NCBI RefSeq assembly: GCF_025403485.1
Contig: NZ_CP099966.1
Span: 1,054,001-1,118,000, forward strand
Length of the DNA stretch: 64,000 nucleotides
From: Chryseobacterium paludis
GTDB taxonomy: Bacteria; Bacteroidota; Bacteroidia; Flavobacteriales; Weeksellaceae
Reading direction: 5' to 3'
Below, piece after piece: positions 52,954 through 58,705 of this stretch (positions within the stretch are counted from its first letter, which is position 1; each line of letters begins with the position of its first letter). Made by a program: the position numbers and the translations under genes. Under the pieces are notes generated by a model, which saw only the letters and a program-made list of their open reading frames with translations, searched no databases and was not told where the DNA came from.

Positions 52954-54831
52954 ATGAAAAAACTTTTATTTCCTGTCATTTTATTTTCGTCTTTTATTTT
53001 CGCACAAGCTCCTGCTGGATATTATGACGGAACAACCGGGCTTACGGGTTACGCTCTAAAGTCGAAACTGCATGATATTATTTCAGCAAAGAATATCAGT
53101 TGGCATTATGGTGATCTTACCAATTATTATAATCAGACTGATCTGGATGTATATTATGATCATGACGCAAGCAATACCACTTTGTTATTGGATATGTACT
53201 CTGAAATCCCGACAGGCCCTGATGCTTACGAGTATACAACAGCTAATTTAATAGGAAGTTCATCTGCTGAAGGACTAGGGTGGAATCGGGAGCATATGAT
53301 GCCTCAAAGTACTTTTTACAGCAACTATCCAATGTATTCCGATCTGTTTTATGTTGTTCCTACTGATGCGAGAATCAATCAGTTAAGAAGTAATTATCCT
53401 TACGGGATTTCTATGACCACACCTTCTAATGTATTTTATACATTTACCAATTCCTCAAAGATTGGAAAAAGTGCCATTCCTAATTATGTATATACAGGTC
53501 GTGTTTATGAACCTATTGATGAGTTTAAAGGAGATGTAGCCAGAAGTCTATTGTATTTTGCTGTCCGATATGAAGGGAAATTAGGTGCTTTTAACTTTAA
53601 TAATAATTCAAATCCAGCCTCGGACACCAATCCTTTAAATGGTACTGAGGAAAAGGCTTTTGACGATGCTTATATTGCAATGTTGCTTCAATGGCATACA
53701 CAAGATCCTGTTTCCCAAAGAGAAATTGACAGAAATAATGCGGTGTATGCAATCCAGAAGAATAGAAATCCATTTATAGATCATCCACAATGGGTAAATG
53801 CTATTTGGAATCAAACCCCGGATAATGTTGCTCCTCAGGCTCCATCTGATTTTAACGCAACTCAGATAAGTACTTATTTTACAACGCTAAGTTGGCTGCC
53901 AAGTTCAAGCTCAGATGTTATTGGATATAAAATCTATCAAAATGGAACACTGGTCGCTTCTACAAAAAGTACTTCTATAAGCATTGATCATCTTTTACCT
54001 TCTACAAATTATTCTTTTACCGTAAAGGCATACGATAATGGGTACTTACTTTCGCCGGATAGTAATGTGATTTCTGTAAATACACTTGCCTCTGATGTCT
54101 ATGCAAAAGACCTTTTTATCTCTAAATATTTAGAAGGAACATCAGATAATAAAGCAATAGAAATTACAAACAGAACCGGACATCCGGTTAATTTAAGTGA
54201 TTATAGGTTGTCAATTCAGTTTTCGAGCACAAACAATTATTACTTTCCAGCACCTTACGAATTGGAAGGGATTATTCAAGATAATGAAGCCTTTGTCTTG
54301 TTAAATCCAAATGCTAATTTTTCATGCTATACAAATGACGAAGCTAAATTTGTTACAGCAGCTCCTCAAATGACCTATTCTGGAAGTCAATACCTTGAAT
54401 TGCGATATAAGTCAGCAACAGTTGATGCCATCGGAATAAAATCTCAATCTAATTTTTCAGTGCTGGGTAATGTCTCTTTATATAGAAAAGCAAGTATTAA
54501 TCAACCAACAAATTCTTTTAATATTAATGAATGGGATATTCATTCCAGTAATTATTGTGAGGATCTGGGAACTTTGTCTGCATCACCTGATATTCGTTTT
54601 GTTGAAAATGATACATTCAAAATCTATCCAAACCCTGTACAGGATCGTATTTTTGTAAGTGGAAAAACAGAAAATATAAAAATAGCTCAAATCATAGATT
54701 GGTCAGGAAGAAGCATTATTACTGAAAAGCTGCCATTTAAAAACAAGACCAATATTTCAGTACAAAATCTACAGCCAGGAATATATTTGTTGAAGTTAGA
54801 TGACAAAACATATAAGCTTATTAAGAAATAA
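52954..54831 (+). CDS. Secreted endonuclease I with FN3, lamin-tail-like and T9SS domains
   Basis: This 625-residue protein has a signal peptide (KKLLFPVILFSSFIFAQ). An endonuclease I domain (about residues 25-275) carries the active-site WNREHMMPQSTF and GDVARSLLYFAVRYEGK. An FN3 repeat (PQAPSDFNATQISTYFTTLSWLP ... NYSFTVKAYDN) and a lamin-tail-like domain (LFISKYLEGTSDNKAIEITNRTG) follow. A T9SS type A sorting domain ends it (KIYPNPVQDRIFVSG ... GIYLLKLDDKTYKLIKK). It is likely an extracellular DNase used for scavenging. Confidence 0.92.
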   Translation: MKKLLFPVILFSSFIFAQAPAGYYDGTTGLTGYALKSKLHDIISAKNISWHYGDLTNYYNQTDLDVYYDHDASNTTLLLDMYSEIPTGPDAYEYTTANLIGSSSAEGLGWNREHMMPQSTFYSNYPMYSDLFYVVPTDARINQLRSNYPYGISMTTPSNVFYTFTNSSKIGKSAIPNYVYTGRVYEPIDEFKGDVARSLLYFAVRYEGKLGAFNFNNNSNPASDTNPLNGTEEKAFDDAYIAMLLQWHTQDPVSQREIDRNNAVYAIQKNRNPFIDHPQWVNAIWNQTPDNVAPQAPSDFNATQISTYFTTLSWLPSSSSDVIGYKIYQNGTLVASTKSTSISIDHLLPSTNYSFTVKAYDNGYLLSPDSNVISVNTLASDVYAKDLFISKYLEGTSDNKAIEITNRTGHPVNLSDYRLSIQFSSTNNYYFPAPYELEGIIQDNEAFVLLNPNANFSCYTNDEAKFVTAAPQMTYSGSQYLELRYKSATVDAIGIKSQSNFSVLGNVSLYRKASINQPTNSFNINEWDIHSSNYCEDLGTLSASPDIRFVENDTFKIYPNPVQDRIFVSGKTENIKIAQIIDWSGRSIITEKLPFKNKTNISVQNLQPGIYLLKLDDKTYKLIKK

Positions 54832-54942: not shown

Positions 54943-55024
54943 TATAAGCAGATTCACTAATAATTAATATCTATAAGTGTTTCTGCTTATATCTTTTATT
55001 TATAAGTAATTATGCTTATATTTG
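54943..55024 (+). promoter_or_regulatory. Three phased operators and promoter of the SatD operon
   Basis: Sites of form TATAAG-N8-CTTATA start at 54943 (right arm CTAATA, one mismatch), 54972 and 55001, exactly 29 bp apart. The last overlaps the -7 box TATATTTG (55017-55024). The ATG is only five bases after that box, so the transcript is probably leaderless. A repressor at the third site would occlude the promoter. Confidence 0.75.
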
Positions 55025-55028
55025 CAAA

Positions 55029-55634
55029 ATGATAGCGGTCATTACCGGTGATATTATAAATTCGCAACATGCAGACACAGAAGTTTGGATCACCAAACTA
55101 AAGAATCTCCTGGAGAATTGGGGAAGCTCACCCCTAACATGGGAAATTTACAGAGGTGACGAATTCCAATTCAAATGTACTATCGATGAAGTTTTCTGGC
55201 GTTTTCTTGCCATAAAATCTATTATAAAAAGTCAGGAAAATTTAGATGTAAGAATGGCCATCGGTATCGGTGAAGAAAATTTTTCATCTGAAAAAATTAC
55301 GGAATCCAATGGAACGGCATATGTACATTCCGGAAGACTGCTTAATGGACTGAAGAGTGACGGAGATACTGTTGCTATTAAGACTTCTAATGAGGCGGTG
55401 GACAGAGATCTTAACATGCTCTTGAAGTGGTCATCCAAGGATTTTGATAACTGGACAATGGCTACAGCCGAAATTATTCATGAAATGATCATGAATCAAG
55501 ATATTACACAGGAAGATCTTGCCAAAAAATTTGCCATCTCACAATCCTCGGTAAGCCAGAGGTTAAAACGTGCAAATTATGACCTTATTATAGAAACTAA
55601 TCAATATTTTAGAAAGAAAATTTCAGAACTGTAA
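55029..55634 (+). CDS. SatD family protein with C-terminal HTH
   Basis: This 201-residue protein starts MIAVITGDIINS and has the central YRGDEFQFKCTIDEVFWRFLAIKSIIKS. These two acidic motifs recall the catalytic core of nucleotide cyclases. The C-terminal HTH (MNQDITQEDLAKKFAISQSSVSQRLKRANYDLI, residues about 157-190) is a DNA-binding helix-turn-helix. SatD takes its name from a Streptococcus mutans acid-tolerance locus. The next gene starts one base after its stop. Three phased palindromes in its promoter suggest it regulates itself; whether it binds or makes a nucleotide is unknown. Confidence 0.85.
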   Translation: MIAVITGDIINSQHADTEVWITKLKNLLENWGSSPLTWEIYRGDEFQFKCTIDEVFWRFLAIKSIIKSQENLDVRMAIGIGEENFSSEKITESNGTAYVHSGRLLNGLKSDGDTVAIKTSNEAVDRDLNMLLKWSSKDFDNWTMATAEIIHEMIMNQDITQEDLAKKFAISQSSVSQRLKRANYDLIIETNQYFRKKISEL

Positions 55635-55635
55635 A

Positions 55636-56331
55636 ATGATTTTCACTAAACTCATATTGGCACATTTACTCGGAGATTTTCTTCTTCAGCCAAATTCATG
55701 GGTTGCTGATAAAGAAAATCGTAAGCTGAAAAGCAAATATTTATACTTACATATTCTTATTCATACTGTTTTAACTTTCATTTTCCTTTGGGATCTGCAG
55801 CTTTGGTGGGTCGCTATTTTAGTGGGAGTTTCTCATTTTATTATTGATGTATGTAAGCTAAGTTTTCAAAATGTAAAAACAAAAAAAAGATGGTTTTTTA
55901 TTGATCAATTCCTTCATGTTTTGGTAATCGTTGGAGTTTCATTCTATTTTAAGGAATTCGACCTTAAAATTTTAGAAAATCAGGATTTTTTAAAAGTATT
56001 GATGGCTGTTTTATTTTTAACGACTCCATCATCTATTATCATTAAAATATTATTGTCTTCATGGACTCCGGTTGCTGAAGCACAAAACAATATACAAACC
56101 GAATCTCTTACGAGTGCCGGAAAATATATAGGGATCTTGGAACGTCTACTGGTATTCATTTTTATTTTAGTGAATCATTGGGAAGGCGTAGGTTTTATGG
56201 TTGCTGCAAAATCTGTTTTCAGATTCAGTGATCTTGCACAGGCCAAACAACGAAAGTTAACGGAGTATGTACTCGTCGGCACACTTTTAAGTTTTGGAAT
56301 GGCTGTTCTAACAGGAATTTTAATTAAATAA
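55636..56331 (+). CDS. DUF3307 family membrane protein
   Basis: This 231-residue polytopic protein starts with the family motif LILAHLLGDFLLQPNSWVADKE (residues 5-26), which carries His and Asp residues in the first helix. About five more helices follow, with HFIIDVCKLSFQNVKTKKRWFFIDQFLHV giving a second H/D-rich segment. These conserved residues hint at metal or nucleotide handling in the membrane, but no activity is known. It is co-transcribed with the SatD gene, a pairing also seen in other bacteria from memory. Confidence 0.85.
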   Translation: MIFTKLILAHLLGDFLLQPNSWVADKENRKLKSKYLYLHILIHTVLTFIFLWDLQLWWVAILVGVSHFIIDVCKLSFQNVKTKKRWFFIDQFLHVLVIVGVSFYFKEFDLKILENQDFLKVLMAVLFLTTPSSIIIKILLSSWTPVAEAQNNIQTESLTSAGKYIGILERLLVFIFILVNHWEGVGFMVAAKSVFRFSDLAQAKQRKLTEYVLVGTLLSFGMAVLTGILIK

Positions 56332-56364: not shown

Positions 56365-57084
56365 ATGGAAAAGAAAGAAATGTTGTACGAAGGTAAGGCT
56401 AAACAAGTGTTTGCTACCGATAATCCTGATCAAGTAGTAGTGCGTTTTAAAGATGATGCTACCGCTTTTAATGCTCAGAAAAGAGGACAAGTTGATCTGA
56501 AAGGCGAAATGAACAACGCGATCACTACTTTGATTTTTGAGTATTTAAATGAAAAAGGGATTAAAACTCATTTCATTAAACAATTGGACGAAAGAGAACA
56601 ATTGGTAAAAAAAGTATCCATTATTCCTTTAGAAATGGTTGTAAGAAACTATTCTGCAGGAAGTATGGCTCAAAGATTAGGGGTAGAAGAAGGAATAAAA
56701 TCTCCGGTAACTATTTTTGACATCTGTTATAAGAAGGATGAATTAGGAGATCCACTAATCAATGATCACCATGCTGTTTTCTTAGGTGCAGCTACTTATG
56801 AAGAACTTGATGAGATGTATGAGTTAACTTCAGATATCAACGAAATTTTGATCGATCTATTTGATAAGATGAATATCATCCTTGTAGATTTCAAAATCGA
56901 GTTAGGTAAAACTTCAGATGGTGAGATCATCTTAGCCGATGAAATTTCTCCAGATACTTGTAGATTATGGGATAAGGACACTATGAAGAAATTGGATAAA
57001 GACCGTTTCCGTAGAGACTTAGGAGAAGTAACTGAAGCGTACGTTGAAATTTATAACAGATTGAAAACTTTACTAGGTAAATAA
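56365..57084 (+). CDS. purC: Phosphoribosylaminoimidazole-succinocarboxamide synthase
   Basis: This 239-residue, standard-length SAICAR synthase starts [39 protein letters not shown]. It has the [23 protein letters not shown] and [30 protein letters not shown] motifs. It ligates aspartate onto CAIR in purine synthesis. It starts 33 bp after the DUF3307 gene, close enough for read-through. purF follows after 127 bp. Confidence 0.96.
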
Positions 57085-57211: not shown

Positions 57212-58705
57212 ATGGAAAGTTTAGACATTCATAAAAGTGAATATTTAAAACAGTTTAAAAACCAGGCCTACGGTAGGAATCTTTTCAGAACGAATGAAGA
57301 AGAAAGACTTGATGCTCCCAATGAGGAGTGTGGGATTTTCGGATTATATTCTGATAATGATCTGGATACGTTCTCTCTTTCTCAGTTCGGGCTTTTTGCA
57401 TTACAGCACAGAGGCCAGGAAGCTTGTGGTATTTCCGTTCTGAAAGACGGAAGGATCAACAATATGAAAGATGAGGGATTGGTTTTAGATGTTTATAAAG
57501 ATATTCAGAATCCTGAAGCTTTTATGGGAAATTCTGCAATAGGGCATACTCGTTATACCACTGCAGGAGACAAAAAGAAGTACAATTTTCAGCCATTTTT
57601 CGCGAAAAACGAATATGACCAGATTATACTTTCGATTGCACATAACGGTAACTTAACCAATGCGAAAGAATTAAAAGCTGAATTGGAAGCTGAAGGAGTT
57701 GTTTTCAGAGCAACTTCTGATTCTGAAGTAATATTGAGATTAATTCAAAAAAATCTTGATTTAGGATTAAGAGGAGCAATCAAAGCAACTATGGAAAAGA
57801 TCGAAGGAGCTTATTCTGTAGTAGGAATGACGAGAAATAAATTCTTTGCATTCAGAGATTTCAATGGGATCAGACCTTTAGTATTAGGAGCTATTGATGA
57901 GAAATCATATGTAGTAGCTTCTGAATCTGTAGCTCTTGATGCTGTTGGAGCACAATATGTCCGTGATATTTTACCTGGAGAGATCGTATATACGAATGAG
58001 AATGAAACTGGATTACATTCTTATATGGTTAATGATAAAGGAAGACAGAGAATCTGTTCTTTTGAATATATTTATTTTGCAAGACCCGACTCTACATTAG
58101 AAAATATTAATGTTTATGAGATCAGAGAAAAGTCTGGTGAGAAAATTTGGGAGCAAGCACCTGTAGATGCCGATTTAGTAATTGGAGTTCCAGATTCTGG
58201 AGTACCAGCTGCAATTGGTTTTTCTAAAGCATCAGGAATACCTTTCCGTCCAGTTTTGATCAAAAACAGATATATTGGTAGAAGTTTCATTGTTCCTACT
58301 CAGGAAATGAGAGAAAGGATTGTCAATTTAAAGTTGAATCCTATCATTTCTGAGATCAAAGGAAAAAGGGTAGTGATCATCGACGATTCTATCGTCCGTG
58401 GTACTACTTCCAAAAGATTGGTTAAGATCTTAAAAGACGCCGGTGTAAAAGAAATCCACTTTAGAAGTGTTTCACCACCTATCATCGCACCTTGTTATTT
58501 AGGAATTGATACACCGTCTAAAGATGATCTGATTTCTGCAAATATGACAACAGAACAGCTTAGAGATTATTTAGGAGTTGATTCTTTAGAGTTTTTAAGT
58601 ACCGACAATCTTAAGGAGATTTTAGGTTCTTCTAATCATTGCTTTGGATGTTTTACAGAAGAATATCCTGTAGCAAAAGGAGAGGAATTAGAACTGTTTA
58701 ATTAA
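57212..58705 (+). CDS. purF: Amidophosphoribosyltransferase, iron-sulfur type
   Basis: This 497-residue enzyme makes phosphoribosylamine, the committed step of purine synthesis. The glutaminase nucleophile is C40 in EECGIFGLYS; the 39 residues before it are a propeptide to be removed. LQHRGQEACGISV, the PRPP loop VVIIDDSIVRGTTS, and the C-terminal CFGCF with other cysteines (QRICSFEY, APCYLGID) fit the Bacillus-like form with a 4Fe-4S cluster. A terminator follows. Confidence 0.96.
   Translation: MESLDIHKSEYLKQFKNQAYGRNLFRTNEEERLDAPNEECGIFGLYSDNDLDTFSLSQFGLFALQHRGQEACGISVLKDGRINNMKDEGLVLDVYKDIQNPEAFMGNSAIGHTRYTTAGDKKKYNFQPFFAKNEYDQIILSIAHNGNLTNAKELKAELEAEGVVFRATSDSEVILRLIQKNLDLGLRGAIKATMEKIEGAYSVVGMTRNKFFAFRDFNGIRPLVLGAIDEKSYVVASESVALDAVGAQYVRDILPGEIVYTNENETGLHSYMVNDKGRQRICSFEYIYFARPDSTLENINVYEIREKSGEKIWEQAPVDADLVIGVPDSGVPAAIGFSKASGIPFRPVLIKNRYIGRSFIVPTQEMRERIVNLKLNPIISEIKGKRVVIIDDSIVRGTTSKRLVKILKDAGVKEIHFRSVSPPIIAPCYLGIDTPSKDDLISANMTTEQLRDYLGVDSLEFLSTDNLKEILGSSNHCFGCFTEEYPVAKGEELELFN

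Follow-up and report, generated by a model that had tools for sequence, protein, structure and literature searches.

The window that we analyzed is a stretch of 64,000 nucleotides from Chryseobacterium paludis, and all features of the locus discussed here lie on its forward strand. The gene satD (55029–55634) encodes a protein of 201 amino acids with a predicted cyclase/GGDEF/palm-fold domain and a C-terminal HTH. It matches the Pfam family PF16264 with 53.9 bits (curated cut-off 29; profile positions 2–204 of 211) and is 93–96% identical to the SatD proteins of the nearest named Chryseobacterium relatives. A single base separates the satD stop codon from the start of the next gene (55636–56331), which encodes a DUF3307 membrane protein of 231 amino acids (PF11750, 101.3 bits against a cut-off of 23). 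Ahead of satD are three palindromes with a period of exactly 29 bp. Operator 1 (TATAAGCAGATTCACTAATA, 54943–54962) departs from TATAAG-N8-CTTATA by one mismatch and has a degenerate right arm; operator 2 (TATAAGTGTTTCTGCTTATA, 54972–54991) and operator 3 (TATAAGTAATTATGCTTATA, 55001–55020) fit the pattern exactly. The arm CTTATA of operator 3 (55015–55020) overlaps a −7 promoter element (TATATTTG, 55017–55024) of the F. johnsoniae consensus TAHHTTTG, and four bases separate this box from the ATG at 55029. The initial annotation had described just this arrangement of three evenly spaced palindromes, the last of them on a −7 box directly before the start codon. It had also named both proteins and pointed out the motifs GDIINS and RGDEF and the HTH at the C-terminus of SatD, as well as the His/Asp pattern in DUF3307. 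We recovered all of these features, and both proteins score above their Pfam cut-offs.

The upstream neighbor (52954–54831) encodes an endonuclease I, likely a secreted nuclease, whose further domains are fibronectin III, lamin-tail and a Por secretion C-terminal sorting domain. DUF3307 is followed on the same strand by a SAICAR synthetase (56365–57084), and the reading frame at 57212–58705 is one that we take to resemble a purine-synthesis amidotransferase.

Single sites of this kind are unremarkable. The genome has 35 of them if one mismatch is tolerated, and a reversed control pattern is even commoner, with 106. The exact 20-mer pattern occurs three times in the 5.05-Mb genome, and two of these occurrences belong to the array in the window. 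Dinucleotide shuffles of the window contain on average 0.42 sites with at most one mismatch, and two of 100 shuffles reach three such sites if spacing is ignored. When the 150 bp upstream of satD are scanned for an array, they score 42, compared to a mean of 34.5 and a maximum of 39 in 300 dinucleotide shuffles.

SatD is matched in all 98 genomes of the genus, 97 times above the cut-off and once as a partial match in a genome that is 75% complete. In overlapping draws of more distant genomes, the Pfam profile detects it in 26 of 80 genomes of the family, 21 of 119 of the order and 38 of 198 of the phylum; with our own alignment it is found in 128 of 395 genomes of the phylum. Our sample consists of 261 SatD loci, including repeats of the same genomes, and in 242 of these a DUF3307 gene was detected in the fetched flank in the same orientation. 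The loci reduce to 224 distinct proteins, or 223 once a locus with too short an upstream region is set aside.

The array scan searches the 150 bp upstream of the gene for three palindromes, leaving the half-site free and allowing periods from 24 to 35 bp, with the second spacing within one of the first. In 180 of the 223 upstream regions the array outscores all 40 shuffles of the same region. The period of these 180 arrays is either 28 (62 arrays) or 29 bp (118 arrays) and takes none of the other permitted values. Among representatives less than 80% identical to each other, 97 of 120 score at least 36, compared to 4 of 118 control regions (regions upstream of further reading frames from these loci, taken as uncurated first-ATG frames of at least 120 or 150 amino acids in any frame), and a period of 28 or 29 is chosen in 103 of the 120. 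The initial annotation had named a lack of the array before homologous operons as something that would refute its proposal, and the array is indeed there before most homologous genes. The 43 upstream regions that fail to outscore all their shuffles include six of the 71 genus loci. Some of these misses have partial or more distant arrays, as in one locus (L229 in genome G545) where the array lies further upstream than the 150 bp scanned; in others none was seen.

The array appears to be tied to SatD rather than to DUF3307, because 16 of 19 Bacteroidota loci without a detected DUF3307 keep it. In another genus of our sample (g35; Flavobacterium would be our guess), pairs of TATTAC operators occur upstream of satD only, in 10 of 10 genomes. 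The number of operators can vary. One satD locus of that genus (L216, G174:C1:129115–129274) has about six at 28 bp, one of them degenerate, and others have three or four.

The position of the −7 box suggests where transcription starts. In F. johnsoniae the element extends from a T at −12 through a G at −5, according to an excerpt of PMC6847099. Applied to the window, this spacing puts +1 at 55029, the A of the satD ATG. In each of the 71 distinct genus loci the box lies 4–5 nucleotides before the ATG, compared to 4 of 771 control reading frames, which again are uncurated. Hence, the proposal that satD and DUF3307 form a leaderless operon gains support from the F. johnsoniae geometry and from the placement of the box throughout the genus, and we consider it likely. 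Leaderless or very short leaders are uncommon. Excerpts of the respective papers report that 87% of the leaders predicted for F. johnsoniae are longer than 10 nucleotides (PMC6847099), that 5.5% of F. psychrophilum mRNAs are leaderless (PMC9723704) and that about 3.7% of B. thetaiotaomicron leaders are shorter than 10 nucleotides (PMC7366714).

Promoter overlap and leaderlessness are not universal among SatD genes. The third dyad is found 12–20 bp from the ATG in just 33 of 76 representatives, and arrays of other lineages often lie further upstream. A TAHHTTTG box 0–6 nucleotides before the start is present in 18 of 120 representatives, so this type of leaderlessness belongs to the group around Chryseobacterium and to some others. 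Within the genus the three operators are not equally conserved. Operator 1 has at least one mismatch in all 71 distinct loci and up to nine in a few, and operator 2 has at most one mismatch in 66 of 71. Operator 3 has at most one in 71 of 71, including the loci where operators 1 and 2 are eroded. Such constancy fits a repressor whose essential site would block the promoter.

We next compared the sequence of SatD with that of the half-sites. For this comparison we used the 151 arrays of the 180 that have TAT-type half-sites and an even dyad, thinned to 52 or 80 representatives. Among 52 representatives less than 70% identical, no SatD column covaries more strongly than residue 177 with half-site positions 4 (z 8.1), 5 (z 9.3) and 6 (z 5.6). 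This residue sits in the predicted recognition helix (residues 172–181) of the helical HTH region (residues 144–198, 55458–55622), and in the window it is a glutamine (codon 55557–55559). Q177 is combined with AAG or TAG in 17 of 21 cases, E177 with CGG, CTG or CGT in 10 of 12, D177 with CGN in 3 of 3, and R or K at this position with a C at half-site position 6 in 5 of 5; the other eleven representatives have other residues. The code is partial. At position 5 residues 186, 174 and 45 score high too (z 7.5, 7.0 and 6.7), and the top columns for positions 7 and 8 are residues 180 and 161 rather than 177.

Since every SatD column shares one tree, descent alone does not easily explain why residue 177 in particular should rank first. 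When pairs are matched on N-domain identity (80 representatives less than 90% identical), residue 177 is again the first column with an excess sharing of 0.61, followed by residues 103 (0.52) and 45 (0.44). Natural swaps with few helix changes point the same way. At 75% N-domain identity one pair (L076 and L089) combines TATTGC with SGR and TATTCC with SRR, and at 70% another pair (L084 and L207) combines TATCTG with SEG and TATTAG with SQG. In close pairs with unlike half-sites (N-domain identity 0.6–0.9), residue 177 is still identical in 87% of 55, so a half-site can change slightly, for instance from AAG to TAG, with 177 staying as it is. The initial annotation had proposed SatD as the binder of the array and as regulator of the satD-DUF3307 operon. 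The covariation and the arrays before most homologs speak for this proposal, and that SatD binds its own array seems to us very probable; that it represses rather than activates is a separate and less firm conclusion.

Half-sites differ between lineages. TATAAG or TATTAG is found in Chryseobacterium and others and TATTAC in the genus mentioned above, and further lineages have TATCGG, TATCTG, TATCGT, TATTCC, TATTGC, TATATG or TATGCC. TGTTTCA occurs in a group without a detected DUF3307. We also examined a set of loci that are viral, plasmid-borne or from outside the Bacteroidota, and DUF3307 adjoins SatD in 10 of 10 of these. The pair on a Vibrio lentus plasmid is preceded by TTAGCC-N6-GGCTAA three times at exactly 28 bp, which none of 100 shuffles reaches. 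Two contigs from a viral collection (L328 and L330) have strong 29-bp arrays (0 of 60 shuffles each), and a third (L329) has no significant array (15 of 60 shuffles reach it). The array on a Segatella plasmid is weaker (reached by 0 of 100 shuffles if the ATG at 2492 is taken as the start, and by 1 of 60 with another start). This SatD gene (L306:2432–3130) is annotated from a start further upstream; as 2492 is the likely ATG, the annotated gene probably covers part of the array. Salinivibrio arrays are marginal (2 and 4 of 60 shuffles), and the Pseudoalteromonas regions (5 and 0 of 60) resemble two sites. For the SatD gene on a Sphingomonas plasmid the scan finds no array.

The initial annotation called the system self-contained, which looks too narrow in this genus. 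A pattern of two operators with at most three mismatches occurs exactly three times per genome in 55 of 60 genus genomes, and the reversed control occurs in 1 of 60. As a rule two of the three matches are the satD array and one is elsewhere (26 genomes with matches listed). In all 21 genomes that we read (20 of the 26 plus G000), this other pair of operators, again with a 29-bp period, starts within the stop codon of one and the same patatin gene (L046:5158–5206, which is G000:C1:3670157–3670205, and L285–L304). The patatin is 345 amino acids long; two copies were read as 352 and 356 amino acids from an earlier ATG. Over the 21 genomes the half-sites are 97% conserved, a figure that is favored by the choice of these genomes by half-site pattern, compared to 64% for the inner and spacer columns and 49% for the 60 bp behind them. 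The genes behind the array vary, and several genomes have a WYL regulator there. An element close to CGTCAAGTTTTGTCG, in some copies with one change, is found shortly downstream of the array in 12 of the 21 genomes (L285–L288, L292, L295 and L297–L302). The G000 patatin (PF01734) matches the PADLOC phospholipase effector profile PDLC00758 (E 3e-61), which we take to be that of a CBASS effector. If SatD acts at this 3' end, an antisense promoter or a roadblock would be our guesses.

The AlphaFold2 model of SatD has a pLDDT of 95, and its N-terminal domain (residues about 1–120, 55029–55388) is, in this model, of the cyclase/GGDEF/Cas10-palm fold. The cyclase likeness seen in the initial annotation is thus borne out by Foldseek structure comparison at the level of the predicted fold, with a best E of only 5e-3. 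Cyclases and GGDEF proteins hold metal with two acidic residues, one in strand 1 and one in a beta hairpin. In SatD, the candidates are D8 (codon 55050–55052) and D44 (55158–55160), which are present in 98% and 99% of 120 representatives, their equivalence to the cyclase acids being judged from sequence and secondary structure. R103 is variable (R in 40%, E in 32% of the 120 representatives) and we can only guess that it is near a catalytic position. We do not class SatD as a cyclase, because its Pfam hits up to an E of 1 include no cyclase or GGDEF family and hence no match to the Guanylate_cyc or GGDEF profiles. The domain keeps two acids of the kind that hold metal and nucleotide and is likely a sensor; that SatD may sense or make a nucleotide was a suggestion of the initial annotation.

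Several known systems resemble SatD in part. Unlike in class III nucleotidyl cyclases, GGDEF proteins, the Cas10/mCpol palm and GTP cyclohydrolase III, there is an HTH at the C-terminus of SatD. With PucR/CdaR-type regulators such as MabR and GabR, SatD shares the combination of a GGDEF-like and a DNA-binding effector domain within one transcription factor; this comparison follows the partial descriptions of MabR and GabR at hand, by which MabR has an extra N-terminal globin-like domain. In our Pfam search no family is common to SatD and these regulators, and we know of no fixed-pitch operator array for them. The Panoptes protein OptS, an mCpol and itself one of the Foldseek hits of SatD (9mnr, E 0.045), is like SatD a palm-fold protein encoded beside a membrane protein, which in Panoptes is the effector. 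To judge from the partial descriptions of Panoptes, SatD differs by its HTH and its own operators, and DUF3307 has no match to any solved structure.

The DUF3307 model is poor (pLDDT 73), and it is this model that finds no match among solved structures. Four motifs, H10xxxD14, H39xxxH43, H67xxxD71 and D90QxxH94, are 86–97% conserved in 208 distinct sequences, which also have a conserved C-terminal block, GxIGxLER...AAKS..RF...EYxLIGTLLS. Kinship to the YdjM membrane hydrolases (PF04307) is unsupported (hhalign probability 0.3%, E 0.24, with 12 YdjM sequences only). Open-licence literature offers no biochemical function for DUF3307 among the matches listed. The SatD family is named after the sat (secretion and acid tolerance) genes of Streptococcus mutans. 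For SatD, the matches listed, many of them on unrelated uses of SATD, contain no DNA target, operator or fold. The acid-tolerance label recurs in an excerpt of a paper on Fusobacterium annotation (PMC10326533). In S. pyogenes, whose SatD lies outside our comparison, an excerpt of PMC11323703 reports satD to be an essential gene that 178 of 249 genomes carry. A gene that is essential yet accessory would suit a role in restraining something harmful.

The array, its pitch, its covariation with SatD and its overlap with the promoter are observed by comparing sequences. Binding, repression and cooperativity are inferred, as are a nucleotide input and a role for DUF3307. We think it quite probable that SatD is a sequence-specific, autoregulatory transcription factor whose dimers on a fixed-pitch array repress its own leaderless satD-DUF3307 operon. 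Each subunit would combine a cyclase/GGDEF/palm-fold domain with an HTH, whose recognition helix, residue 177 foremost, would read the central bases of the half-site (TATAAG in the window). Dimers would occupy the 20-bp palindromes at a fixed pitch of 28–29 bp. DNA makes one helical turn every 10.5 bp, and as 28–29 bp is not a whole number of turns, a contact between the proteins probably sets the pitch. Its strictness also suggests cooperative binding, with neighboring dimers touching. The promoter-proximal dimer would cover the −7 box and shut down the operon, including DUF3307; the upstream operators would increase occupancy, and a ligand of the N-terminal domain may alter it.

One could also argue that another regulator binds the array and that SatD is merely encoded downstream. 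Bacterial genomes hold many HTH proteins, but no other SatD column matches the half-site bases as well as residue 177 does, and arrays accompany SatD on the Vibrio plasmid and at loci without a detected DUF3307. We regard this explanation as very unlikely. It is less likely still that the palindromes act as RNA hairpins, in a leader or terminator. They can fold, and a tandem pair follows the patatin gene. The predicted satD transcript, however, begins downstream of all three palindromes, a pitch of 28–29 bp argues against hairpins, and so does the difference in conservation between half-sites and inner and spacer columns at the patatin end, even though those 21 genomes were picked by half-site pattern. 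SatD could also bind but mainly activate, with operators 1 and 2 recruiting the polymerase to a promoter in which, by eye, there is no obvious −33 element. Operator 2 is indeed centered near −47 of the predicted start. That argument is weakened because F. johnsoniae promoters lack a clear −33 motif too, according to an excerpt of PMC6847099. In addition, it is operator 3, on the −7 box, that is kept in every genus locus, and the erosion seen in a few loci affects operators 1 and 2. Mainly activating SatD therefore seems unlikely to us.

A further explanation concerns what the operon is for. SatD and DUF3307 may be a toxin/repressor-like or defense module, in which a harmful membrane protein is held back and freed on a nucleotide signal. 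A likely autorepressor with a membrane partner would fit, as would the reported essential yet accessory S. pyogenes satD (178 of 249 genomes in an excerpt of PMC11323703), the second operator pair at a gene matching a PADLOC effector profile, and the occurrence of SatD-DUF3307 pairs on plasmids, one of them beside Pycsar and TIR genes. On that Sphingomonas insulae plasmid (L307:1–5564) the pair adjoins a Pycsar effector and a cyclase-domain protein, and a TIR-domain gene lies on the other side. Unlike patchy defense genes, satD is found in all 98 genus genomes, and PADLOC, which covers systems described by 2023, gives no match for DUF3307 and only weak matches in the HTH region for SatD. All in all, a defense module strikes us as doubtful.

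In 28-bp arrays the half-sites, alternating in orientation, are evenly spaced 14 bp apart. This leaves room for a different geometry, in which the array is a template that assembles cyclase-type dimers. Cyclase and GGDEF domains work as pairs. Because half-sites alternate in orientation every 14–15 bp, the HTHs could pair within palindromes and the cyclase-fold domains of adjacent dimers across the gap, and a nucleotide at the junction could gate both the hold on the array and the release of the membrane partner. We know of no precedent for such a nucleotide-gated, DNA-scaffolded switch, and we give it a small chance of being right. If it is, the released partner would be DUF3307 and, in Chryseobacterium, also the locus of the CBASS-effector-type phospholipase.

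SatD is a widespread family for which no molecular role was found in print among the matches listed, and the role that we propose for it is that of a sequence-specific autoregulator. The predicted cyclase/palm fold would be joined to DNA binding in the same protein, which makes the question of a nucleotide directly testable. Our comparison also yields likely operators for dozens of lineages and, at a single position, part of a code from residue to base. With a pitch that stays at 28–29 bp while the half-site sequence shifts, SatD and its arrays provide a clear natural series of regulator–operator coevolution.
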